NCBI GenBank assembly: GCA_022822745.1
Contig: JAJEAO010000011.1
Span: forward strand, 23,921 to 87,920
Origin: Acidobacteriota bacterium
GTDB taxonomy: Bacteria > Acidobacteriota > Vicinamibacteria > Marinacidobacterales > Marinacidobacteraceae
Length of the DNA stretch: 64,000 nucleotides
Direction of reading: 5' to 3'
A program made the translations under genes and the position numbers. Of the stretch, positions 8,863 to 44,029 are shown one piece after another. The notes beneath the pieces are model-generated. The model searched no databases, was not told the origin of the DNA, and saw only the letters and a program-made list of their open reading frames with translations. Position 1 is the stretch's first letter; every line of letters starts with the position of its first letter.

Positions 8863-9990
8863 TTGTCACTCCCGCTCCGCCTGGCCAGCCCCGTCGAGAA
8901 GCGCCCCGGATCAGAGTCGCCGCCCTCCGGCGGGCGCGATCCGGACCTGCCGCTCGGGACCGTCGCGCTCTTCCGCGGAGACGCCCTGATGGCGTATGGC
9001 GACTGGCCGGTTCCCTCGATGATCCTGTCCGACGGCGCCTATGGAGTCGGCGGATTCCCGGGCGACCCACGGAGTCCCGAAGAGCTCGTGGAGTGGTACC
9101 GGCCCCATGTCGCCGCGTGGGCCGAACGCGCCCATCCAGCCACGACCCTGTGGTTCTGGAATACCGAGATCGGGTGGGCCCACGTGCATCCGCTGCTCTC
9201 GGATCACGGTTTCGAGTACGTCCAGACCGTCGTCTGGGACAAGGGCGTCGCTCACATCGCCGGGAACGTGAACGGCAAGACGATCCGTCAATTCCCGGTT
9301 GTCACGGAAGTTGCGGTTCTCTACCGACGGCGACCGCAGTTTCCGACGCCCGACGGCGTGCTGTCCGCGCAGCGGTGGATCCGCTACGAGTGGCGACGCG
9401 CCGGGCTGGCGTTGCACCTGGCCAATCGGGCTTGCGGCGTCAGGAACGCGGCGAGCCGGAAGTACCTCGCGCAGGACTGGCGCTGGTACTGGCCGCCGCC
9501 GGAGGCGATGGAGCGTCTCGCAGCCTACGCCAATGCCCGCGGCCGGCCGGAAGGCGCTCCCTACTTCTCGCTCGATGGCGTGACCGCACTCACGGCCGAT
9601 ACCTGGGCATCGCTCCGCGACCGCTGGAATCACCTCCACGGGCTGACCAACGTCTGGTCGCACCCGCCCCTGCACGGATCCGAGCGCTTCAAGGGAAGCC
9701 GGATGCGTTCGGCGCCTCGAGTCCACCGAGTCGGTCCGTCCGCGTCGGTTCACCTCAACCAGAAGCCGCTCGAGTTCATGCGTCGCATGCTCCTCGCGAC
9801 GACGGAGCCGGGAGACGTCGTGTGGGAGCCTTTCGGCGGTCTCTGCTCCGCCTCGGTGGCCGCCGTGGAGCTGGGACGTCACGCCTGCGCCGCCGAGACG
9901 GTGGAGCGCTTCGCCGATCTGGCAGCCCAGCGACTGGAGGAAGTCCGGATGCGGTCCGATCAGGATCTTTTCCGGGTTTCCTCGGCGTAG
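8863..9990 (+). CDS. DNA methyltransferase (beta-class motif order, restriction-modification type); start uncertain
   Basis: SMILSDGAYGVGGFPGD (motif IV-like), LNQKPLEFMRRMLLATTEPGDVVWEPFGGLCSASVAAVELGR (motif X/I region). Confidence 0.82.
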   Translation: MSLPLRLASPVEKRPGSESPPSGGRDPDLPLGTVALFRGDALMAYGDWPVPSMILSDGAYGVGGFPGDPRSPEELVEWYRPHVAAWAERAHPATTLWFWNTEIGWAHVHPLLSDHGFEYVQTVVWDKGVAHIAGNVNGKTIRQFPVVTEVAVLYRRRPQFPTPDGVLSAQRWIRYEWRRAGLALHLANRACGVRNAASRKYLAQDWRWYWPPPEAMERLAAYANARGRPEGAPYFSLDGVTALTADTWASLRDRWNHLHGLTNVWSHPPLHGSERFKGSRMRSAPRVHRVGPSASVHLNQKPLEFMRRMLLATTEPGDVVWEPFGGLCSASVAAVELGRHACAAETVERFADLAAQRLEEVRMRSDQDLFRVSSA

Positions 9991-24361: not shown

Positions 24362-25927
24362 TCAGGCGGGTTCGGCGCGCACTGCGAGGAGGTTGCGTTC
24401 CTCGCGGCCGAACACGGCGCCGATCCGGTGGATCGGTTCGCCGCGAGGGCGGTACTTCTCGGCGTAGCCTCGGTCCCGGATCTGCCGCATCGCCCGCGCC
24501 AAGGCCGTGTCGGCGTCCTCCCCGTCCTCCGCCATCTTGAATTCGAAGACGAACACCTGCCCTTCGTGGAGCAGGACCATGTCGGCCCGGCCACGATGGG
24601 AGGCCTCCTCCACCCGAACCTCCATCCCGATCGCCTGGAAGCAGGCGTAGAGCATCCCGGCGTACCACGCCTCGTAGCGAGCGAGTTCCGGACGGCTCTG
24701 CCACTGGTAAGGGACTCCGGCGAAGAAACTCTGCAGCCGGGCGGCGAAACCGTCGAAGTCGTTCTCTGCCAGCATCCGGCACAGCGCCCGGCCATCACTC
24801 GACACTTCCGCGCGGCCGGAACTGACGTGTTGAAGAAGACTGCTGTTCAGGCTGTAGCGGACCTCGAGATTCGGATAGTCGAGTGTGAACAGGGTCTGCG
24901 GTCCGAACCTCTCCTCGGCAGCGATCGTGAGGTAGCCGGTCTGGAACAGCAGGGCGTCGAGACGCATGTCATCCACATCGAACTTCGAGAGCAGGTTCGC
25001 ATCGGAGACCCGGTTCTCGAGTTCCAGCGTGTTCACTCGCCTGTCCATCATCAGGGGGAACAGGAAGCTGGGGGAACCGGTCTGGTACCAGTAGGGCTGG
25101 AACTCCCGACTGTCGAAGTGGAGAAGGATGTCGAAGGGGTTGTACACCTTCTCTCGACCGCGCCAGTGATAGCCGTTGTACCAGCGCCGGATCCCCTCCC
25201 GATCGAGCCCGGTCAACTCCGGCGCGAAAGTCGCATCGAGATCCCCGTCGGTGTAGCCGCAGAGCGTGGCGTAGCGCGGATCGAGGCTGAGATCCTTGAG
25301 GTTGTTCAGGCCCGAGAACAGGCTCACCTTGGAGAACATGCTGATCCCGGTCACGAAGACGAACCGGACATGCTCGGCGCTGCCCTTCATGATGCCGTAG
25401 AAGCCCCGAAGTATCTCCCGGTTCGCTTTCGCCAGCGCTGGCTTCCGGAGCGCATCCAGGATCGGCTTGTCGTACTCGTCCACGAGCACGACGACCCGTT
25501 TGCCCGTTCGGCGATGAAGCCGGTACAGCAGGTCGGTGAGGTGTTCGGGAGCGCGATCCGAGGTCGAACCCGGGTCGAGCCCCGAAGCGCGCTCGGCGAT
25601 CTCCAGTTGCTTGCGGATGTTGCCCTCGAGGTCTCCCTCCTCCGTGTACCGCCCGTCGAAGCTCAGGCGCAGGACCGGATACGTGTTGTCCCAGTTCCAG
25701 TGCTTGTGGATGTCCAGCCCCCGGAAGAGCGGCTCGCTGCCGGCGAACAGCTCGCGGAGCGTGTCGATCAGGAGGCTCTTCCCGAAGCGCCGGGGACGGG
25801 AGAGGAAGTAGTAGTCGCCCCGGTCGGTCAGCTCCCGGATGAGGGGCGTCTTGTCAACGTAGTAGCAGTCCGTCTCCCGGAGCCTGCGGAACGACTGGAG
25901 GCCGATGGGGAGGCGACGGCGTTTCAT
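24362..25927 (-). CDS. AAA-ATPase-like protein with C-terminal PD-(D/E)XK nuclease domain (DUF1703-type)
   Basis: MKRRRLPIGLQSFRRLRETDCYYVDKTPLIRELTDRGDYYFLSRPRRFGKSLLIDTL...VLVDEYDKPI...RGRADMVLLHEGQVFVFEFKMAEDG. Confidence 0.93.
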   Translation of the reverse strand: MKRRRLPIGLQSFRRLRETDCYYVDKTPLIRELTDRGDYYFLSRPRRFGKSLLIDTLRELFAGSEPLFRGLDIHKHWNWDNTYPVLRLSFDGRYTEEGDLEGNIRKQLEIAERASGLDPGSTSDRAPEHLTDLLYRLHRRTGKRVVVLVDEYDKPILDALRKPALAKANREILRGFYGIMKGSAEHVRFVFVTGISMFSKVSLFSGLNNLKDLSLDPRYATLCGYTDGDLDATFAPELTGLDREGIRRWYNGYHWRGREKVYNPFDILLHFDSREFQPYWYQTGSPSFLFPLMMDRRVNTLELENRVSDANLLSKFDVDDMRLDALLFQTGYLTIAAEERFGPQTLFTLDYPNLEVRYSLNSSLLQHVSSGRAEVSSDGRALCRMLAENDFDGFAARLQSFFAGVPYQWQSRPELARYEAWYAGMLYACFQAIGMEVRVEEASHRGRADMVLLHEGQVFVFEFKMAEDGEDADTALARAMRQIRDRGYAEKYRPRGEPIHRIGAVFGREERNLLAVRAEPA

Positions 25928-31096: not shown

Positions 31097-31546
31097 CTAG
31101 CAGTTGCATGGAGCTTCGGATTCGCCGGACGCTGCGGCGACCACCGGCAGCTCCGGCGCGGCGCAGGAGGACGGCTCTTCCTCGATGTCCTCGATCACGC
31201 GGTACCACTCCCACCGCAGTCCCTCGGGTTCGTATGCCCAGACCTTGTTCTGGCGGGCGTGGCAGCAGACCACTTCGCTCTCGATTTCGTGAGGCAGGCC
31301 CTCATCCGAGATCCGCCGGATCGCGGATTCGACCTGGACGTCTTCCATGACCTCGACCCCGAGATGGTTCAGGCGGTCGGCGGCTTCGTCGTCCGTCTCG
31401 AACAGGACGAGCTTGAGCGGAGGCTCGGCGATGGCGAAGTTCGCGTAGCCGGGCTTCCGCTTCCTCGGCTCGACGCCGAACAGCCGGGTGTAGAAATCCA
31501 CGGCAGCGTCGAGATCGCGGACGTTCAGGGCGAGTTGCAGTCGCAT
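31097..31546 (-). CDS. ArsI/CadI-family VOC metalloenzyme
   Basis: MRLQLALNVRDLDAAVDFYTRLFGVEPRKRKPGYANFAIAEPPLKLVLFE...VVCCHARQNKVWAYEPEGLRWEWY. Confidence 0.88.
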   Translation of the reverse strand: MRLQLALNVRDLDAAVDFYTRLFGVEPRKRKPGYANFAIAEPPLKLVLFETDDEAADRLNHLGVEVMEDVQVESAIRRISDEGLPHEIESEVVCCHARQNKVWAYEPEGLRWEWYRVIEDIEEEPSSCAAPELPVVAAASGESEAPCNC

Positions 31547-31857
31547 CGGGTGTTTCTCCTCGGGGGATCGGATGCTTCCTCGCAGCAGTTGCGGGTGAGG
31601 AAGTCCACCAGCGAGTTCATCGCGTCGAAGTCGGGGCTGTACACGAGAGAGCGCCCCTCCCGCCGCCGGCGAACCATGCCGGCGAGCCGCAGCTCCTTGA
31701 GGTGGAAGGACAGGGTGGGCGCCGGGATGCCCAGGATGGTTGCCGCCTGGCCGGCCGGCAGCCCCGAGGGCCCGCGTCGCACCAGCAGCCGGAAGACCTC
31801 CAGTCGGGTCTCGTGCGCCAGGGCCGAAAGGGCGGCGACCGCCTCATCGGTTTCCAT
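31525..31857 (-). CDS. ArsR-family transcriptional regulator
   Basis: METDEAVAALSALAHETRLEVFRLLVRRGPSGLPAGQAATILGIPAPTLSFHLKELRLAGMVRRRREGRSLVYS. Confidence 0.93.
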   Translation of the reverse strand: METDEAVAALSALAHETRLEVFRLLVRRGPSGLPAGQAATILGIPAPTLSFHLKELRLAGMVRRRREGRSLVYSPDFDAMNSLVDFLTRNCCEEASDPPRRNTRCDCNSP

Positions 31858-31925
31858 ATTTCCAAGTATATCGAAAGTTGGACGGAGACACAACGCCGCA
31901 TGCTGCGTTTTCGGGGCCGGCGCCC

Positions 31926-33287: not shown

Positions 33288-33843
33288 CAGGGGCTTCCGC
33301 CGGGACCGGCTCGAGCGGCCCCGGGAAGAGTCGAAGAGAGGGGACGGCCCCGCGAGGGGCTCGTCATCAGGTGGGCGCGAGGTCGGCGGGGCTCGCTGTG
33401 GCCCGGCTCCACCTCGCCGGGAAGCGGGACGAAGACCAGGGCCGAACCGGTCCGGCGCGTCGGGCGCGGGTGCAGCCCTCGCGCCGGCTCACGGCGCTAC
33501 GCGCGAACGCCTCCCGACGGGTCCGTCGTGGAGCGGGCATCCGGAAACGTGGACGCACTCGCGATCAGCCGCGAAACCGGCTGACCTCATCCCCCCGCTG
33601 ATTCCGTTTCGCAGCATAGCACGAGCCAGCCGTCCCGGGCCGGTCTCCCGGTCGGGCGTCAACCGTCGCGCGCCCCTGACGGCGGAGCGCCCCCGGGCTG
33701 AAGCATGCCCCGTGGACCCGGAAATCGCTCCCGTGAGCCCCTTTCCGGGCGGAAAAAGCACGAGGCTCCCCCGCTCACGGCAGCTCTCCGGGTATCGGCC
33801 GATCTGTCTCCAACCTTGTAACCCGAATAAGGAGAAGCCGCCC

Positions 33844-36774
33844 ATGCCCCCACCCGATCACGAGCTGAACCGAACGCTGGTCCTCAACATCATCCGGGGC
33901 GCGCTGATGGAGGGGAAGCCTTACATCAGCGATGTTCTGGAGGAAATCCACGACGGCTGCGCCAGGGACACCGACTGGCTCGCGGCCGGGCTGCCCGAGC
34001 TGCCCGATTCGCTGTTCTCGGACGTGTCCGGCAAGGGATTCGCGAGGGCGAGTCGCGCGGAGAGGAAGCAGCACGAGCAGGAACTGAAGGCGATTCTGGA
34101 TCACCTGGAGGAAGCCGACCAGCCTCCGCCCGCCGCGCCCGCGGAGACCGACGAGGGGGAGAACGTCGTCCTGGATGTCTCCGACATGGCCGACCCGCCG
34201 CCGTCCGCGGAGGCCGACGAGGGCCCCGGGCATCGGGCGGTCCGCCTTCTCGCAGACTGCCTCGGACTGGATCGCGACTGCGTCCGGATCCTCGACCTCT
34301 GCCGAATCTCGGACGGGGACGGACTGGTGCGGAGCCTGTGGAAGACGTTCCAGCCTCTCCGGGACAATGCGCGGAAGGTGGCGCTCTTCCTGGCGATGCC
34401 CGGCGCGCGGGCGCGGCGGGCGCTGGAGACCCTGTGCGAAATCCGCCTGCTGCGCATCGGCGACTCCCGCGACCCCGACCGCGAGGATCCCGACGACTGG
34501 CTCCCTCGCCCGGTCCAGTCCCTGTGGACCGCGCCGGTCGCGGACCGCGACGAGCTGCGGAGGCGCCTGGTCGGCGAGCCGCAAGAGGCGCTCCTCGGCC
34601 TGGACGCCTTCGGCCATGTCGAGGAACGGGTGGAGGCGCTCGGAGTGCTCCGAGGAGCGCTCCGGCGGCGCGCCGCCGGCGAAACCGCCGAGCCGGGCGT
34701 GAACATCCTCCTGTTCGGTCGCGCCGGGACCGGGAAGACGGAACTGGCCCGCACGCTCGCGGCGGAAGCGCAGGGACAGCTCCATTCGATCGGCGAACTT
34801 CGCCCCGGCGCCAGCGAGACCACGGGGCGCCGCCTCAGCGGTCGAACCGACCGCCGCATCGAACGGCGGAACGGCTTGCGTTTCGCAAACGCCGTCCTCG
34901 CTCGCCAGCCGAACGCGGTCCTTCTCTGCGACGAGATGGAGGGGGTCGTGGACGCGGATGGTGACCGGCAGCTCGAAGTCCACCGGCTTCTCGAACGCAA
35001 TCCGGTGCCGACGATCTTCACGGCGAACCGGATCACCCACTTGAGCGAAGCGGTCCTTCGCCGGTTCATGGTCGTCGTGCGGCTCCGGCCACTCGGTCCC
35101 GGCGTCCGGCGCACCGTCGTGACGCGCATGCTCGGCGAATCCGGCATCGAGCTCCGTGATCCCGGCGCCGTGACCCGCCGCCTGGCGGACGAGCTGGAGT
35201 GCTCCTTCGGCATCGTCGCTTCGGCGCTCCGGGCGGCGCGACTCGTCGAGGGGCAGGACGAGGAGCTGCTTCGCAGCGCCGAGCGGATCGAACGCACGAT
35301 CTCGACCCACATCGCGCTGCCGCGGATCGGCGCCCCTGTTCCCGCCCGCCTCCCGTGGAGCGCGTTCCACCACCTGGGCGACGACGCCGAAGACGCGCTC
35401 GCCGTGCTCCGAACGACGCTTCGCGCGCGCGAGTCCGGCGATCCCGTCTCGGTTCCGGGAGTCAACCTTCTCTTCTACGGCGCTCCGGGAACCGGCAAGA
35501 CCGAGTTTTCCCGCACCCTCGCCGCAGAGGCGGGCGCGGTTCTCTATGCGGTCGGAGGCGCAGGGGCCGGATCGGACACCCGGCTGACCCTGCCGCGCGA
35601 CCACGCGCTCGAGTACGCGATCGAGACGCTGCGCCACGAGCCGCGGGCGGTGATCCTCTTCGACGAGATGGAGGATTTCGGCCACCTGCGGCCCAAGGAA
35701 TGGCTGAACCGCCTCATGGAACGCTCTCCGGTTCCGATTCTGTGGACCGCGAACGCCACCGACTTCTTCCGCGCGGTGCGTCCGTTCTCGCTGGATCGGA
35801 TGGTTCACGCGATCCGGTTCGGGCGCATGCGCCTCAAGGACCGCAAGGCGCTGTTTGCCTCGATGTTCCGGGAGGCCGGGCTGTCGGACTCCGAGTCGGC
35901 CCAGCTCGGCGACGAGTTCGCCCGCACCGCGGGAATGACCCCCCGGCAGGTCCGGCTCGCGGCCGAACACGGGCAGGGTCGCGGCGCCGACGCGATCCGC
36001 CGCATGGCTCATCAGAAGGCCAGGCTCCGGTTCGGAGCGGCGCCGTTCCAGCGCAGCTCTCCCCGGACCTACGATCCCGCGATCGTTCGCGCCGATCACG
36101 ATCTGATGGAGCTGGCGAGCGCGCTCCGGCGAGACCCGTCTTCAGGAGCAGGCCTTCTCTTCTCCGGTCCGTCCGGAGCCGGCAAGTCCGCTTTCGCGCG
36201 GTATCTCGCCGAGTCCATGGGAAAGGACTGCCAGGTGCGGCGGGCGTCCGACCTCATCGACAAGTACATCGGCGAGAGCGAGAAGCGGATCGCCCGGGCC
36301 TTCGACCAGGCGCGGTCGCAGGACGCGGTGCTCGTCTTCGACGAGGCCGACTCGCTGCTGTCCGATCGCCGGACCGCCCAGCGCTCGTGGGAGATCAGTC
36401 AGGTCAACGAAATGCTCTCCCAGATGGAGCGGCACCCGCTCCCGTTCATCTGCACCACGAACCTGGCCGACGCCCTTGATTCGGCATCGGTCCGACGGTT
36501 CCTGATCCACGCCCGATTCGACTACCTGGATCGGGAGCGGATCGCGCGGGGCTATCGGCTCTTCTTCGGAGAGGCAGCCCCGCCCGAAGTGCTCTTGCTG
36601 AAGCGCATGACTCCGGCGCATCTCGCGCTCGTCCGGCGCCAGGCAAGGCTCCTCCGTTTCAGCGAGGATCCGGATCGCATCGCAGCCGCCCTGCGGCGCG
36701 AGTGCCGGGACGCGTCTCGCCGCGCCGTCGCGGGCTTCGAAGTCGCCCGAGACCCACAGCCGCAGAACCGGTAG
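33844..36774 (+). CDS. Large protein with three tandem AAA+ ATPase domains
   Basis: Three Walker A motifs: GRAGTGKT (34717-34740), GAPGTGKT (35479-35502), GPSGAGKS (36166-36189); Walker B VLLCDEMEG, VILFDEMED, VLVFDEADS; RBS-like aggag before ATG at 33844. Confidence 0.88.
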   Translation: MPPPDHELNRTLVLNIIRGALMEGKPYISDVLEEIHDGCARDTDWLAAGLPELPDSLFSDVSGKGFARASRAERKQHEQELKAILDHLEEADQPPPAAPAETDEGENVVLDVSDMADPPPSAEADEGPGHRAVRLLADCLGLDRDCVRILDLCRISDGDGLVRSLWKTFQPLRDNARKVALFLAMPGARARRALETLCEIRLLRIGDSRDPDREDPDDWLPRPVQSLWTAPVADRDELRRRLVGEPQEALLGLDAFGHVEERVEALGVLRGALRRRAAGETAEPGVNILLFGRAGTGKTELARTLAAEAQGQLHSIGELRPGASETTGRRLSGRTDRRIERRNGLRFANAVLARQPNAVLLCDEMEGVVDADGDRQLEVHRLLERNPVPTIFTANRITHLSEAVLRRFMVVVRLRPLGPGVRRTVVTRMLGESGIELRDPGAVTRRLADELECSFGIVASALRAARLVEGQDEELLRSAERIERTISTHIALPRIGAPVPARLPWSAFHHLGDDAEDALAVLRTTLRARESGDPVSVPGVNLLFYGAPGTGKTEFSRTLAAEAGAVLYAVGGAGAGSDTRLTLPRDHALEYAIETLRHEPRAVILFDEMEDFGHLRPKEWLNRLMERSPVPILWTANATDFFRAVRPFSLDRMVHAIRFGRMRLKDRKALFASMFREAGLSDSESAQLGDEFARTAGMTPRQVRLAAEHGQGRGADAIRRMAHQKARLRFGAAPFQRSSPRTYDPAIVRADHDLMELASALRRDPSSGAGLLFSGPSGAGKSAFARYLAESMGKDCQVRRASDLIDKYIGESEKRIARAFDQARSQDAVLVFDEADSLLSDRRTAQRSWEISQVNEMLSQMERHPLPFICTTNLADALDSASVRRFLIHARFDYLDRERIARGYRLFFGEAAPPEVLLLKRMTPAHLALVRRQARLLRFSEDPDRIAAALRRECRDASRRAVAGFEVARDPQPQNR

Positions 36775-36818
36775 CGCGTCATCTGGACATCCTGCTGGAC
36801 ATCCTGGCCGTGTCGAAC

Positions 36819-37136
36819 ATGCTGACGAGAGCCGTCCATCGTGTAGGCGTCAGAGCGGTAAGTGTTTCTATCGTCACGGCGCTCGCCTCACTCCTGGTGG
36901 CGCTTCTTGCCCTCGTGATGGTGCTATGGATGTGGAGAGTCATTGATGATCTCGTCGAAAGGCTCATTGAGAAATCGGCATACGTACTGTGTCTGGGGAT
37001 GTTGAGCATCCTTCGTGTGGTCGTCAATTACTTCAGGAAACATCGCCATCGGATGTCCAAGAAGAATCAGGCTGCCGTATCCGAGATGGAAATCGAGCTA
37101 TCCGAGATAGAGGATCTCGTGAAGAGCCCGAGCTGA
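36819..37136 (+). CDS. Small membrane protein with TM hairpin and charged cytosolic tail
   Basis: VSVSIVTALASLLVALLALVMVLWMWRVIDDLVERLIEKSAYVLCLGMLSILRVVVNYFRKHRHRMSKKNQAAVSEMEIELSEIEDLV; directly downstream of the AAA+ gene. Confidence 0.6.
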   Translation: MLTRAVHRVGVRAVSVSIVTALASLLVALLALVMVLWMWRVIDDLVERLIEKSAYVLCLGMLSILRVVVNYFRKHRHRMSKKNQAAVSEMEIELSEIEDLVKSPS

Positions 37137-37328
37137 ACGAAGCGTCAACGGGTGGCCTTCATGATCCGATTCTCGTGCTCAATCCTTGACGCGAAATGGA
37201 GAAACTCCGAACTGAAGTGCCGCAGCCAGGACACGACGGACACGCCTCCGGTCCTGGACGATCTCCGCAGCGCAAACCGCTGCCGGCGCCGGCGACACGG
37301 CGCATCAACGCGAGGGGCGAGTCCTCCC

Positions 37329-38567
37329 TCAGTCGGTCGAGGAGAGTGCAGGCGACGCGCCTTGATTCCGCGCCTCTCTGACTTCCCAGAAGTCCACCAC
37401 GGATTTCCAGGATGGAGGCTCGGCGATGAATGTGCCGTCCTTGATCTCTTCGCCACCGAAAGTCCGACCGAGGTAGGGGTCCACCTTGCCTCCCGTCTGG
37501 TTGTATCCGATGGATTCCAGGAACGCCTGCCTGCCCTCCGTCTCCAGGACGACCGGCCAGTTCGTCTCGTCGGCGAGTCGGTACGCCAGCGGCAAAGTTG
37601 GTGTGCCCCAGAAGGGATCCGGCAGGCCAGTCATGAGAGCGTCACCGTCACCCATCGGCCTGATTCTCCAGGTCGGAACTGTGTCCATCTCGCGCATGCG
37701 GGAAATCTGGAAACTCCTGAAGTAATTACCTGGACAGTCCAACAGGCGGTGGCCCTTCCAGAACAGGTATCTCTGAACCTCGTTTCGGTCGATAAGGAAA
37801 TCCCGGAGGAGTTCCCATCCGGGCTCCATCTGCAGTTTCCGCCGAGTCGTGGCGAAGTGGTGTTCGCTCGTTCGTTCTCGTGCGTTGTGTCCCAAAACCG
37901 ACATACGGAGCGGTGCCCCCTTGGGGTGCGTCCTGGAGACGGTGGAATCCCTGTTGTCACCGCTACGCCAACCCCACTCGAAGCGCTCTATGTCCCCCCG
38001 TGGGCTGTTGACGATCACCGTTTCCTGGTCATACTCGTACGCATAGGAGAACGCGAGCGCCTTGACGCGACCGGCGAACGAGTGTCGCTTGGGGTTCCAG
38101 ACCAGCAGCCTGCTGGGATCCTGCTTTCCCCGGGACGTACCGAATCGCGCCAGAGTCGTGAGTCCGAGTTCATGAGCCTCGGCCATCATGGGCTCGAGCC
38201 TGTGCGACGACATCTCGACCCGCTGACGCCGGTCCAGGAGCCGGTACGGGATACGATGATCGGTCCACAACGCACGATGGCGTTCGTGCCGCATGAGGGG
38301 GTGGCCGCGGCCGATCCATGTTCCGACAAGGCCGAACTCGTGATTCGACAGGATTTCGTCCAGGAACACGCTGTCGGCCGCCTGCATGGAACAACGAAGA
38401 GACTCTGCGAACGGACGGTCCGGATGCGGCCAGCCGGAGCCGTCGAGGATGGGTCTCTTTCCCTCCAGGATGAGTCGGGCGGCCATCCGGAGTTCCCTCT
38501 CCTTTCGCCTGGAATGGGCGTTCTCGGTCTCCACCAGGCGCAGGATTCGCTTCAGGACTCTCGACAT
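37329..38567 (-). CDS. Hypothetical protein of unknown family
   Basis: Long coherent ORF in locally AT-richer DNA; MSRVLKRILRLVETENAHSRRKERELRMAARLILEGKRPILDGSGWPHPDRPFAESL. Confidence 0.7.
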   Translation of the reverse strand: MSRVLKRILRLVETENAHSRRKERELRMAARLILEGKRPILDGSGWPHPDRPFAESLRCSMQAADSVFLDEILSNHEFGLVGTWIGRGHPLMRHERHRALWTDHRIPYRLLDRRQRVEMSSHRLEPMMAEAHELGLTTLARFGTSRGKQDPSRLLVWNPKRHSFAGRVKALAFSYAYEYDQETVIVNSPRGDIERFEWGWRSGDNRDSTVSRTHPKGAPLRMSVLGHNARERTSEHHFATTRRKLQMEPGWELLRDFLIDRNEVQRYLFWKGHRLLDCPGNYFRSFQISRMREMDTVPTWRIRPMGDGDALMTGLPDPFWGTPTLPLAYRLADETNWPVVLETEGRQAFLESIGYNQTGGKVDPYLGRTFGGEEIKDGTFIAEPPSWKSVVDFWEVREARNQGASPALSSTD

Positions 38568-38977
38568 TCGCTGCCTCCCGGGGCGGGGGTTCTCCCGACG
38601 AACTCGAAGGGAGGCTTCAACTGAGTGCGGTGGCGCCGCGCCCGCGGACCCATCTCTTGCCCGGATACGACTTCGGTGGACACTGCGTCGGCGGGACTCA
38701 CCCCACCGGGGCGCGCGCGTACCTTGATGCGCGAAGGGAGCGGATCCAGGTCATTGCCCGTGGGCGTGGACGAGCCCGTCACTCCGTTCCCCGCCGCCCC
38801 GACCGGGCTGATGGCGAGCGATGGCTCCGCTGCCGCTCGATCGGCTCGCACGTCCGCCGAGCGATCGTCACCGATTCCGATGGAGCGCCGACGGGAACGT
38901 GGACGGCGCCCGCGATCCGGAGCGGGGGGTCCGTGAAGCGGCCGACGAGCGCCGGCGCCGTGTTCGCGAGCAAGTGA

Positions 38978-39144
38978 ACCTCCCGGTGCTACTCCGGGGA
39001 GGCGGGCTCCGCCGGATTCGTACTGTTTGCCCGGGAGCGGGCTCCCGGACCGCATCCCCCACACGGGGAGCCACCTTCGCCCGAATCCGGAGACCCAAGA
39101 GGCAGGTTGGCGAGAGCGCCCGAAGGCGCTCCACTCAGGATGCT
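38978..39144. repeat. Structured 167-bp direct repeat, copy 1
   Basis: Near-identical ungapped match to 43587-43753 (offset 4609 bp) with several stem-loops. Confidence 0.93.
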
Positions 39145-39408
39145 TCAGGCAACTTTATCACACGACTTCCCGCCCGAGCCGCCTCCGATAGAGCCGCCAT
39201 ACCAACACTCGCCGCCCTGGACGCCTGGGAACAGCGTCGTCACCGCGGAGTGAGGCGACAGGATCGCTGACCGGAAGCAGCCCATGTGGCCGGGCGACGG
39301 TCCTCCAGTCCTTGCCAACCGAGCGCACCGTGACTCACTATCACCGTGCGCGCCCTCGCCGGTGAGGTGATCTCTCCGGAGCGGTTCGCCGTCGCCGCCG
39401 CGATCCAG

Positions 39409-40293
39409 TTACGGCAGCTCCTGCAGACGTGCCTTCAGCCGTTCCAAGGAGCTCTTCTTCGGAGGATGCCCCTCCGGAAAGTCCCGCTCCGGGAGCGCGA
39501 TCCAGCCCTCCATCTTCGCGAGATCCTCCATCCCGCGTGGAATCGGTTGAACCAGCGGATCTTGTCCGGGTTGCCGGCGGTCCAACTCAACCATCAGGGC
39601 GATGATCGCTGACACCAAGCCATCCAAGGTGTCATCGCTATTGATGCAGTCTTCACGAAAACTCCCCAACCAGTCAGTCGGCAGATCAAGGCCCTTGATC
39701 ATCTTCTTGATGATCTTCTCGCGAGCACTCTTGTGTTTGTCCTCAGACCCCTTGTACCCAGTGTGAACCAACTTCCAGAGCTTCAGGGCAACGGCCGGAT
39801 ACACTTCCACGAAGCACCCGCTACGCCCGGAGCGGTCGACTCTCAAGCCTTTCTTGGCTGTTGCCCGCGAGAGAAGAGATGCGTTCCGGATTGCCACAGC
39901 GCCAAGAGAATCCACCGCAACGCTGAGTGGCTTCCGCCCGAGGTGCCAGACGTGTAGGTCGGTTGCCCGGTACTTCAGATCCAGATACTCGGATGCCGAC
40001 GTGATCCGCTCAGGATAGACGTCAGGATTGTTAAGTGGCCAGCGATGGAAGCTCCGGTAGTCATGTAGAGCACTGACAAACCCGACTGGCCACCCAAATG
40101 GTGAGTCAATGCCGATCCTCCGGACCAAGGGATCACCAAAGGCATCAAGCAGCGTCTTGTCGTCCGCGGGCTTCTGATGATCCTCAATCTCGGGGATCCC
40201 GTTTGAGATCTTGATCGTACATAGAGCTGTCTTGTCTGCTTGGGCGGCGAGGTCCACGCCGAGAACCTTGAAGTTCCTCTCTGAGTCACTCAT
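39409..40293 (-). CDS. DUF429-family protein (predicted RNase H-like fold)
   Basis: KVLGVDLAAQADKTALCTIKI...RRIGIDSPFGWPVGFV...YRATDLHVW...FVEVYPAVALKLW...SDDTLDGLVSAIIALM. Confidence 0.85.
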   Translation of the reverse strand: MSDSERNFKVLGVDLAAQADKTALCTIKISNGIPEIEDHQKPADDKTLLDAFGDPLVRRIGIDSPFGWPVGFVSALHDYRSFHRWPLNNPDVYPERITSASEYLDLKYRATDLHVWHLGRKPLSVAVDSLGAVAIRNASLLSRATAKKGLRVDRSGRSGCFVEVYPAVALKLWKLVHTGYKGSEDKHKSAREKIIKKMIKGLDLPTDWLGSFREDCINSDDTLDGLVSAIIALMVELDRRQPGQDPLVQPIPRGMEDLAKMEGWIALPERDFPEGHPPKKSSLERLKARLQELP

Positions 40294-40492
40294 GGGTCGG
40301 GAGGGTACCAGGGGAGAGCGGCTCGGAACAAATGCCGGCGCGCCGGACTGATGGTCAAGGGATGAGGGGCCTCTCCACTGGCGGCTTGCGGTTGAGCGAT
40401 CTCGCCGGGGCCAGGCGAAATCCTGTAGCGCCCAATGGGCCAAGGTCTGTTCTCTAAACAGGGACACTACTACGACTTACGCGAGAAATCGG

Positions 40493-40840
40493 TCACAGAA
40501 TGACGAACTTGGATGGCCCGGGGCAGCGCCGGGGCGGCAGTGCCGGGAGGTCGGAGGGTGAGATCCGGAGGGCGAGTTCGCGCAAGACGTCGAGCCGGGT
40601 GAGGTCCGGTTCGCTGGTCCGGAGCCAGGCGGTGTCGGTGGACTGAGTGATCACCGCGAGAACGGAGAGCGGGTCGCGGATCCTGTGCGTGGCGAGTCGT
40701 GCCGGGACGACCGGGCAGGCGTCGGGAAGGAGCTGGGGCGGTGTTCTGCGGACGGATCCAGGGACAGCCAGGCGCCGGGCCGTACGTTGGATCGCGTCGG
40801 TAAGGATGGACTCGGCAGTGTTCCCGAGTCGGGAGAACAT
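40493..40840 (-). CDS. Hypothetical protein, possibly truncated
   Basis: ORF MFSRLGNTAESILTDAIQRTARRLAVPGS; coding-like residues continue upstream (ESDAARILVQLGDPEN) without a clear start. Confidence 0.3.
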   Translation of the reverse strand: MFSRLGNTAESILTDAIQRTARRLAVPGSVRRTPPQLLPDACPVVPARLATHRIRDPLSVLAVITQSTDTAWLRTSEPDLTRLDVLRELALRISPSDLPALPPRRCPGPSKFVIL

Positions 40841-40894
40841 GTTCTCGGGGTCGCCAAGCTGAACGAGGATCCTTGCGGCGTCGGATTCGTGTCG

Positions 40895-42253
40895 TCAGTG
40901 CGCCTTTCGGTGACGGCTTCGGTATGGACCAGGGTCGGGTCGGCAAAACTCCCTGGGACGACGAAAGGCGATGATTCGTCTGAATCGGCCGCAATTCGGA
41001 CGGAAACTATAGGGGATTATATCTCTGAGTATCCACGGCGGAGGTAGCTGCCTCTGCGTTCCCCATATTGGATTCGACGCCATCCACCCACGATCCACTC
41101 CGCATCTCCGACTGCGTGATTTCCCTCCTCCATCTTCCAGGCGGCAGCTCTGCCGCCATGCGCGGAACTCGTCAACAAGGGCATACATCTCGTCAATGGC
41201 CACCCTCGCCTCTCGAAGGTACTGACCTCTCTCAAGATCATCGAACTCCCTCCGCTTCTCCATGATCCGCCGATCCATCTCGAGTCCCCATCGTCTCTCC
41301 TCCTTGCTGATATCGCGCCACCATTTCTCCTCATGGACTCTCAGGCCATCATAGGAGTAATGGTCCTGGATCGCCTCCTCCAAGTCTCTGCGTCCATCCT
41401 TATACAGACCACTCAGAAACACTCTACCCAAGCTCATGAACCCCATCGTAGGACGTGAGATGGGAAGTAGTCTCTGTTCGAGAGTCCATACATGATGTGG
41501 ATTGCGCCTGCTGACTCTAGTGTGATCGCCTCCAGACGGTATCGCTCCCTGTTGAACTGCGAGTTGTTGATTCTTGAGCCTTTGAAACGCCCCCGCCCCG
41601 AACCCCGCCCTAGTCAATTGGAGCGAGGTTTCCTCCTCGTTGGTGAAAGAGAGATGCGCAATGCCCCTGGAAGGCCTGGTCATGATGGCCGACTCCTGAC
41701 CGTGCTTCCGAGCGAAGTACAGCATCTCTTTCTCGAACTCATCCTCCGGGGTCGTTCTTCTATCGGCATCCATCTCCCGTCCTCGGAGTCCGACAACGAG
41801 CCAAGACCACCACATCTCCGCTGCGGGGGCTCCGCCACGATTCTGATGAATGTACGAGCCCTTTACGAGCTGAGCGGAATACCCTAGGTCATCAATGTCC
41901 TTCCGCATCTCCTTGTTCCGAAGTTGGTTCACGCTCCTCGTAAACTCCTCCTTCGCCTCTACATTGCCGTGTCTGTCGTACTGAGACTTCTCGTCCTTGT
42001 AGGCGGAGATCTGACACACTGAAACGCAAGGGTGACGAGTCCATTGCTCGAATTGCGCCATCGACCGTTCGAGGAACGAAATCGCGTGTTCATTCGTGAT
42101 GCCCTCCAGGGAGGCCAGTTGTTTCACTCTATCTTCAAGGGCATAATCGGGAGAGTCAAAGATGTCTGTGACGCCGTGCGAGAACTCGGAAGAGTAGCCA
42201 ACGATACTCATGGCTTCGCATCCGTTGGCGCAATAGTAGTCGCTATACTTCAT
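40895..42253 (-). CDS. Hypothetical protein of unknown family; C-terminal extent uncertain
   Basis: Long ORF in AT-richer DNA with amino-acid use unlike GC-driven spurious ORFs: MKYSDYYCANGCEAMSIVGYSSEFSHGVTDIFDSPDYALEDRVKQLASLEGITNEHAISFLERSMAQFEQW. Confidence 0.68.
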   Translation of the reverse strand: MKYSDYYCANGCEAMSIVGYSSEFSHGVTDIFDSPDYALEDRVKQLASLEGITNEHAISFLERSMAQFEQWTRHPCVSVCQISAYKDEKSQYDRHGNVEAKEEFTRSVNQLRNKEMRKDIDDLGYSAQLVKGSYIHQNRGGAPAAEMWWSWLVVGLRGREMDADRRTTPEDEFEKEMLYFARKHGQESAIMTRPSRGIAHLSFTNEEETSLQLTRAGFGAGAFQRLKNQQLAVQQGAIPSGGDHTRVSRRNPHHVWTLEQRLLPISRPTMGFMSLGRVFLSGLYKDGRRDLEEAIQDHYSYDGLRVHEEKWWRDISKEERRWGLEMDRRIMEKRREFDDLERGQYLREARVAIDEMYALVDEFRAWRQSCRLEDGGGKSRSRRCGVDRGWMASNPIWGTQRQLPPPWILRDIIPYSFRPNCGRFRRIIAFRRPREFCRPDPGPYRSRHRKAH

Positions 42254-42287
42254 CCTCTACCATCTCCTCGGTGAGTGCAATGAGACA

Positions 42288-43460
42288 CTAGCCGAACACG
42301 GGGTACTTCGACGCTCGCGCTCGTCGTACTCTCCGGTACGCTCTGACCAGGTCGGCGCCCATCCAGGCGAGACCGACGGGCCTTCGTGCGTTCGGCAGGA
42401 ATCGGTACTGGAGGGGCTGGACGGTGGCGGCGGCCACCATGAAGGGGCGCCAGTGGCCCGACGGCGCGAGGACGAACTCGGGAAGCCCGTCAGGGCCTCC
42501 ATCGGCATTGATCCTGTTGGTGTAGAAGCCGCCGGTCCCGAAGGCGGGATCAGGCAGATCGCTCCGGGATTCTGGAGGACCGTTGCGTGATCCCGTCGTT
42601 CGCGCCGCGATCGCTGCCGGGTCGCGGAGAATGATCCGGCGTCGGGTCAGGCCGGGCGTGGACAGGACTTGTCCCACACCCGAGGCGGGGAGCGAATTCC
42701 CAGAGGAGGCGTCCTCGCCGGAGGAATCGGACCTGGCGCGCCGCGCTTCCGTAGGCGTGAGCGCATCGGCGACGACGATCAACTGCAAGGGAGGCGTCAG
42801 GTTGGGGTGGCGGATGACGTAGGAGTACTGCTTCCAGCGCGCCGCGATCCGCGCTGCAGCCGAACGCAGAGCCCCGGCGGAGAAGTATTCCGGACCGACG
42901 AACAGGATGCTGAGCTCCGGTCTGGTCTTGCCCCCTCTCGCCCGGCGATGTTCGCACTCCGCGCGGAGGTGTCTGAGAGCCCTGTCTCCGCGCTGCTCGC
43001 CCGCGGGGAGACCAGGACGAACGGCGTTGCGCGCCGTCCGCATCAGACCGGTCGTCCGGGTCCAGTACCGCCTCCAGAGAGGAAGGTCCAGCATAGGAGC
43101 GTTCTGTCGCTGTCCGCAGTGGCCGCGGAGGATCCAGCTCGTCCGGGTCATCGCCGACACCTCGTTCCTGCCCCGGTCGAGAGGGAGTTTGCCGAGCTGC
43201 CTGACGGGCTCGATGAAGTCCTCCATGGAATCCCACCCGCTCGGTGTCCTGCCGCCTGGCAGCGAGAGGATCAGAAGCGGCTTGTCGCTCTCCAGAAGGG
43301 CCTGCAGCGGGGGGCCCATCGCCTCGATGAGGACGGGCACAGTGGAGTCGGAGTCCTTCGCGTGTTTCCGCACCGAGCTGAGTCCCACTTCCAGGAGAGG
43401 CTGGAACCTCCCGTTGACGCTGCCGGGAAAGCGAGGGGCCGCCGTCGCGTCCGAACTCAT
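42288..43460 (-). CDS. Hypothetical protein of unknown family
   Basis: MSSDATAAPRFPGSVNGRFQPLLEVGLSSVRKHAKDSDSTVPVLIEAMGPPLQALLESDKPLLILSLPGG...RPELSILFVGPEYFSAGALRSAAARIAARWKQYSYVIRHPNLTPPLQLIVVADAL. Confidence 0.68.
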   Translation of the reverse strand: MSSDATAAPRFPGSVNGRFQPLLEVGLSSVRKHAKDSDSTVPVLIEAMGPPLQALLESDKPLLILSLPGGRTPSGWDSMEDFIEPVRQLGKLPLDRGRNEVSAMTRTSWILRGHCGQRQNAPMLDLPLWRRYWTRTTGLMRTARNAVRPGLPAGEQRGDRALRHLRAECEHRRARGGKTRPELSILFVGPEYFSAGALRSAAARIAARWKQYSYVIRHPNLTPPLQLIVVADALTPTEARRARSDSSGEDASSGNSLPASGVGQVLSTPGLTRRRIILRDPAAIAARTTGSRNGPPESRSDLPDPAFGTGGFYTNRINADGGPDGLPEFVLAPSGHWRPFMVAAATVQPLQYRFLPNARRPVGLAWMGADLVRAYRRVRRARASKYPVFG

Positions 43461-43586
43461 GTCGTCTCGGCGGCGTGGACGGACTCGATCTCATCGAGGC
43501 CGGTCGCATCGGGTCGCCGCGGCCACGGCTTCCAGGGGCGGGGCTTCGCGACGGCGGGCGCCGGTGGGTTCTGCGAGCGCAAGCGG

Positions 43587-43753
43587 ACCTCCCGGTGATG
43601 CTCCGGGAAGGCAGGCTCCACCGGATTCGTACTGTTTGCCCGGGAGCGGGCTCCCGGACCGCATCCCCCGCACGGGGAGCCACCTTCGCCCGAATCCGGA
43701 GACCCAAGAGGCAGGTTGGCAAGAGCGCCCGAAGGCGCTCTACTCAGGATGCT
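43587..43753. repeat. Structured 167-bp direct repeat, copy 2
   Basis: Same length as copy 1, about 8 mismatches in a manual alignment; contains GAGCGCCCGAAGGCGCTC and CGGGAGCGGGCTCCCG hairpins. Confidence 0.93.
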
Positions 43754-44029
43754 CGGGACGACCGTACCAGAGGAGCTTCCGCACAAGCCGCTCCTGCGGC
43801 CATGTGTGCGCCACGACGTGACACGCGATCACCCGGCGATCCAGCGATCGACGCCGGATCCGGCCTCTCACGGGGGGCTTGCCAGTTCGAGTACGCCGTG
43901 CTCAGGTCGAGCCATCCGATCCCGGACGACCCGAACCAACCCGTCCCCTCCGGAAGGGTCGCCCGGTGCGGCGTTCCCCCGGGCCCCGCTGTAGAGCGGC
44001 GCTCCACGCGCGCCGCTGCGGAGGGTTGG

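Follow-up and report, generated by a model that had tools for sequence, protein, structure and literature searches.

Tandem AAA+ machines normally carry two modules, and how additional tiers originate and divide the labour within a ring is a general question. The 64,000-nucleotide stretch of DNA analyzed here (the window) raises it with a single gene at 33844..36774 (+ strand), which encodes a 976-residue protein, P0001, containing three AAA modules. The gene is supported by a codon-usage gene model, by the Pfam family PF00004 (AAA) and by orthologues in four related genomes. Its open reading frame is intact, with an ATG start preceded at normal spacing by a GGAG Shine-Dalgarno-like motif, and the sequence-only reading had delimited it exactly. 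PF00004 matches three stretches of the protein (whole-protein E 2.7e-42). The N-terminal region (33844..34581, +; residues 1-246) is helical in the AlphaFold2 (AF2) model and is followed by modules D1 (34582..35313, +; residues 247-490), D2 (35314..36048, +; residues 491-735) and D3, which together with the stop codon occupies 36049..36774 (+; residues 736-976; best PF00004 stretch 771-893). D1 contains the Walker A motif GRAGTGKT (34717-34740, +) and the Walker B motif LLCDE, D2 the corresponding GAPGTGKT (35479-35502, +) and ILFDE, and D3 GPSGAGKS and FDEAD together with RRF.

Both profile matching and structure prediction bear out the earlier claim of three AAA+ modules. In the AF2 model of residues 1-495, D1 adopts an AAA+ fold (residues 260-480, with mean pLDDT values mostly of 80-90), for which Foldseek returned spastin, p97/Cdc48 and PCH-2, each with probability 1.00; ATAD1 is also among the nearest solved structures, alongside these three. 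All three modules are visible in the full-length model, which is of modest quality (pLDDT 64, pTM 0.37). The window derives from a draft assembly (3.5 Mb, 120 contigs), in which a third module could conceivably be a product of sequencing, misassembly or a chimeric bin. We consider this explanation to have a negligible probability, and in effect ruled out, because the same three-module architecture is shared by four related genomes (G398, G404, G401 and G399), represented by other assemblies, with orthologues diverged to ~44% identity over the aligned length; a near-identical contig also exists in another record. Identity between P0001 and these orthologues is 29-31% in the N-terminal region, 43-47% in D1, 46-49% in D2 and 46-47% in D3. 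D2 is as conserved as D1 and D3 and is therefore not decaying.

The relatives of P0001 are proteins of ~650-770 (typically ~700) residues with two AAA modules, here termed A1 and A2, found in genomes, on plasmids and islands, and in one unverified phage record. Members include a Rahnella protein (L009), WP_013512269 from Pantoea plasmid pPAT9B03 and WP_076072477 from Rhodoferax; no E. coli homologue was found when the Rahnella gene was searched at the DNA level. P0001 and this family have in common a diverged N-terminal domain and a first module without an aromatic pore loop, and D3 shares with module 2 the motif SW(E)(V/I)xxVNEML, the aromatic pore loop, RRF and a C-terminal GF. D1 has all features of an A1 module (Walker A and B, an RR pair, no aromatic pore loop), D2 has all of them except RR, and D3 has the A2 features, namely the pore loop, RRF and SWE(V/I)xxVNEML. 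The family has exactly two modules, in contrast to P0001 and its four orthologues, in which module 1 is doubled, D2 reads D-R and ~120 additional residues precede the N-terminal domain. Since it has three modules instead of two, P0001 is a variant of the family and not a plain member.

This placement qualifies the sequence-only reading in two respects. P0001 is not a stand-alone new design but branches off from a two-AAA family. The N-terminal region, described as novel, is so only in part: residues ~129-205 correspond to a diverged copy of the family N-terminal domain (hhalign comparison with the N-terminal sequences of 27 two-AAA relatives, probability 93, E 3e-7, 95 columns; hmmsearch alone gave a weak match, E 0.003), while no relative of the first ~120 residues was detected outside the three-AAA clade. 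The homologues found carry only the annotations 'ATP-binding protein' or 'AAA family ATPase' and do not form a characterized housekeeping family. In the literature searched, which took in few subscription papers, there was no description of the two-AAA family or the three-AAA variant, and neither these sources nor the tools consulted describe the family as a defence system.

BLASTP aligns 224 residues of D1 and D2 with 36% identity (E 1e-24 for a database size of 1e6), and their local alignment score of 252 compares with a mean of 35 for shuffled sequences (z 40.6). D3 stands further apart from the two (z 13.6 to D1 and 9.1 to D2, against shuffles) and lies nearest to classical AAA remodelers, its best general matches being Cdc48-type. 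In a tree of 69 modules, A2 and D3 are split from A1, D1 and D2 with support 100, and D1 and D2 each form one clade (98 and 99). In a tree of module 1 sequences only, D1 and D2 lie on one side of a branch with support 77/96. The alignments and trees agree with, rather than prove, an origin of the three-AAA architecture by internal duplication of family module 1. A fusion of two tandem two-AAA genes is a possible alternative origin, and such a pair of paralogues is found at L007 (3494-5620 and 5823-7883) in a Deltaproteobacteria MAG, where it may illustrate another route to multi-module proteins; the grouping of D1 with D2 at 77/96 favours internal duplication over fusion. The D1/D2 duplication can be placed earlier than the divergence of two genera.

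The three modules are unequal, as the sequence-only reading had proposed along with the duplication and the classical character of D3. Walker A and B motifs are intact in every module of all five three-AAA proteins. An aromatic pore loop, the element that substrate-threading AAA motors use, is present (scored as [WYF]-x-G-x-[STNA]-E) in 32/32 A2 and D3 modules and in none of the 37 A1, D1 and D2 modules. Within P0001 it occurs only in D3, as the pore-loop-1 motif YIGESE (36265..36282, +), which is accompanied by SWEISQVNEMLSQME and VRRF. A second asymmetry concerns a putative arginine-finger pair. All 64 of the A1, A2, D1 and D3 modules have two adjacent arginines after sensor 1, whereas D2 reads D-R in all five three-AAA proteins; motif alignment locates the change in P0001 at D651-R652 (35794..35799, +). 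In Vps4 and spastin, both arginines of the RR pair extend into the adjacent ATP site. Loss of the first arginine should therefore weaken hydrolysis in the D2 tier and leave binding in place, so that this tier would act as a nucleotide-binding layer with weakened hydrolysis. With a single diagnostic change in D2, and unduplicated relatives as controls, sub-functionalization of an AAA ring becomes directly testable.

Several characterized AAA proteins share parts of this arrangement. Cdc48/p97, Rix7/NVL and AFG2 resemble P0001 in the AAA fold, the stacking of modules and a last module with an aromatic pore loop, but have two modules, a different N-domain and housekeeping roles in eukaryotes or archaea. 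An assignment to Cdc48/p97 was rejected on the TIGR01243 score of 74 bits against a cut-off of 802.65 and on the presence of three modules, not two. The meiotic-clade proteins spastin, katanin and Vps4 have a similar W/Y-x-G-E-S/T-E pore loop, and spastin is among the best fold matches of D1; these proteins also possess the RR arginine pair. They differ in being eukaryotic, with a single AAA module and microtubule or ESCRT substrates. D3 further resembles the AAA domain of IetA from the IetAS anti-phage system (best PADLOC IetA match 5e-29). IetA, however, is a single-AAA protein of ~370 residues, compared with 976 residues and three modules in P0001, and the NCBIfam IteA score, 79.3 bits where the cut-off is 510, excludes this identity. 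No IetS-type subtilisin-like protease was found beside the three-AAA gene among gene calls or Pfam-searched neighbours. Two single-AAA proteins similar to D3 are encoded elsewhere in the same genome (L002 and L003; G000:C87:6886-7353 and C13:99353-99757), and a motif scan found no subtilisin-like protease gene within ~1 kb of either.

The three-AAA gene is present in 5/193 genomes of the class, all in one taxonomic family, where its distribution is patchy (5/10 genomes). Ordinary two-AAA paralogues occur within the same genus too (G400 and G403, with a partial frame in G404). Plasmids and phages yielded no three-AAA copy, no place there covering 80% of the query. The copy in the window is part of an inserted segment of ~10.7 kb (33288..44029), delimited by comparison with nine relatives and flanked on one side by rho and on the other by a small gene next to hisS. 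The site is empty in 9/9 of these family relatives, in which rho, the small gene and hisS lie close together. The GC content of the 3' part of the insertion is 0.627, against 0.71-0.72 outside.

Other features of the insertion include a DUF429 gene encoding a predicted RNase H-like protein (39409..40467, -; PF04250, E 2e-15), and G404 has a weak DUF429 match (L036:3440-4144) in the interval that separates its three-AAA gene from the nuclease gene described below. A 240-nt direct repeat, 85% identical, occurs at 38943-39182 and 43552-43791, 4.6 kb apart, with a third copy at G000:C35:19754-19935 (90%); the repeat may mark a second, nested insertion. The insertion also encodes a 452-aa protein (40895-42253) with an S-adenosylmethionine lyase match below the Pfam cut-off (E 0.003) and two proteins of 412 and 390 aa without Pfam matches (37329-38567 and 42288-43460).

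The P0001 chain contains neither a protease nor a nuclease domain, which makes partners likely, as had been anticipated. The nearest candidate by position is a small hydrophobic ORF of 105 aa with two possible transmembrane helices (36819..37136, +; assigned from position and sequence). One could imagine that P0001 is a defence-type remodeler whose effector is this product, co-transcribed with the three-AAA gene and harmful to the membrane on release, the nuclease being incidental. The ORF is on the same strand, begins 44 nt downstream of the three-AAA gene and is also kept in L006, the near-identical contig. It is found in no other of the 193 class genomes, the four other three-AAA genomes included, and is for that reason weak as a partner; a GC3 of 0.65 and a low coding score suggest that it is spurious or of recent origin. 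We regard it as a possible operon partner on weak evidence, and its role as the effector as improbable.

Comparison of the three-AAA genomes pointed to a different partner. In three of them (G398, G401 and G404), a nuclease of ~614 aa is encoded by the next substantial same-strand gene beside the three-AAA gene; one small gene separates the two in G398 and G404. In the genome of the window, the nuclease gene is unlinked to the three-AAA gene (G000:C19:9566-11386), and in G399 it is absent. Among 17 relatives, it is found in 4/5 genomes with the three-AAA gene and in 0/12 of the others, a split with a probability of about 0.002 for independent genomes, which these are not, because three of the four share one locus by descent. 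Among the phylum genomes sampled, the nuclease was found twice (2/396).

The nuclease combines PD-(D/E)XK motifs, GxxD (GIPD), DAK (VDAK) and QxxxY (QLFLY), with the DEDD-type motifs DFET and YNEVD. These are kept in five homologues, with exceptions in G169 (AAD for IPD and DIK for DAK), and a match to PF13482 falls just below threshold. The same PD-(D/E)XK and DEDD make-up is seen in DUF2779 and TM0106 (COG2251), proteins that consist of a PD-(D/E)XK-like and an RNase H-like domain and are predicted to be 3'-5' exonucleases (PMC3985635). The co-occurring nuclease has no significant DUF2779 profile match (hhalign probability 0.8%) and only a weak match to TM0106, and therefore represents a separate family. 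The notion that the partner is homologous across two-AAA and three-AAA loci was accordingly dropped, the motif make-up being shared but homology to DUF2779 undetectable. In the second of the two phylum-sample cases, G169 (L078:2186-9595), the nuclease gene immediately follows a very large, helicase-like P-loop ORF of 1821 codons, which suggests that the nuclease family pairs with different motors. We consider the nuclease a candidate working partner of the three-AAA protein.

The surroundings of the parent family offer a wider context. A WYL regulator was found in 19/30 two-AAA loci and in 0/20 control loci scanned with the same queries, counts that do not amount to a blind test since the queries were taken from the two-AAA loci themselves. 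No WYL gene was found near the three-AAA genes in the five loci. WYL proteins regulate defence loci (PMC4012209, PMC9122601). The two-AAA loci also hold DUF2779 or TM0106 nucleases and PD-(D/E)XK and UvrD pairs, and in one plasmid locus BREX genes lie next door to the two-AAA gene. Further neighbours are ADP-ribosylglycohydrolase, HEPN, Sir2 and RtcB proteins and PLD/SNF2 cassettes. The neighbourhood survey that had been advised thus yielded an adjacent nuclease in three three-AAA genomes and the WYL association of the parent family. It points to a widespread two-AAA family with a strong WYL and nuclease association and, for the three-AAA variant, to a specific nuclease to pair with it. Among 17 loci from viral contigs, nearly all contained unrelated AAA proteins, the exception being the two-AAA member L055. 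A cassette of two-AAA gene, WYL gene, a 416-aa protein of unknown function, PLD-like protein and SNF2-type helicase is conserved in Rahnella and Pantoea (L009:7374-16253 and L022:7359-16219), with a similar set in Rhodoferax (L023), and looks like an undescribed defence operon.

Some of these neighbours would also fit a family that, instead of attacking invaders directly, senses or repairs damage (RNA repair, ADP-ribosylation or DNA damage stress). Its AAA protein, controlled by WYL regulators, would then remodel complexes that are modified or have stalled. Beside two-AAA relatives, RtcB (L008, L026), ADP-ribosylglycohydrolase (L019, L020), Sir2 (L024, L027), a macro domain (L023) and HEPN (L019, L020, L049, L054) all point in this direction. 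Each of them, however, occurs in a minority of loci, nucleases and helicases are equally common, and none of the five is found near the three-AAA genes; we judge a damage role to be a serious but unlikely alternative. A further possibility is that P0001 is an ordinary cellular remodeler, engaged in protein quality control like Cdc48 or IetA, with a neutral duplication and neighbours that are hitch-hikers in a variable region. In its favour, AAA proteins are promiscuous, Cdc48-type proteins give the best general matches, and any accessory segment might account for the insertion. The patchy distribution (5/10), the otherwise empty site, the WYL enrichment and the equal conservation of the three modules nevertheless render this reading distinctly unlikely.

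Sequence comparison shows the architecture of the three-AAA protein, the duplication, the motif asymmetry, the insertion and the co-occurrence with the nuclease; our confidence in the architectural statements is very high. A tandem AAA ATPase in defence-type surroundings is already a known kind; the three modules and the specialized middle one are new. For function, we tentatively favour, at somewhat less than even probability, an AAA remodeler of defence type that threads with one module, regulates with the other two and feeds a trans-encoded nuclease. Six chains would form a ring of three stacked tiers, with D3 pulling a protein or nucleoprotein substrate. D1 and D2 would bind nucleotide and serve as an assembly or regulatory platform, with hydrolysis weakened in D2, and the N-terminal helical domain might recognize the target or a partner. 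ATP-driven remodeling could then expose or deliver nucleic acid to the separate PD-(D/E)XK and DEDD-type nuclease, and the pair would destroy invading DNA or RNA. The reading draws on the WYL, nuclease and helicase neighbours of two-AAA loci, on the insertion at a site empty in nine relatives and on the patchy distribution. Against it speak the unlinked nuclease gene in this genome, the missing nuclease in G399, the common descent of three of the four co-occurrences, the lack of WYL genes near three-AAA genes and the want of convincing homology between the nuclease and DUF2779 proteins. The more specific proposal, that duplication turned the middle tier into a nucleotide-binding, poorly hydrolyzing control ring that switches the trans-encoded nuclease against invaders, and that the two proteins form a new two-component defence system, seems to us rather doubtful.

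Elsewhere in the window, at 31097-31893 an ArsR-like regulator (HTH_20) lies beside a glyoxalase-like gene that by eye resembles ArsI/CadI; the pair is inserted between rplU and rho, which are neighbours in the relatives. The gene at 24362-25927 encodes a protein combining AAA-ATPase_like and PDDEXK_9 domains, and a solitary N6/N4 DNA methylase (8863-9990) is located close to a cell-wall gene cluster.
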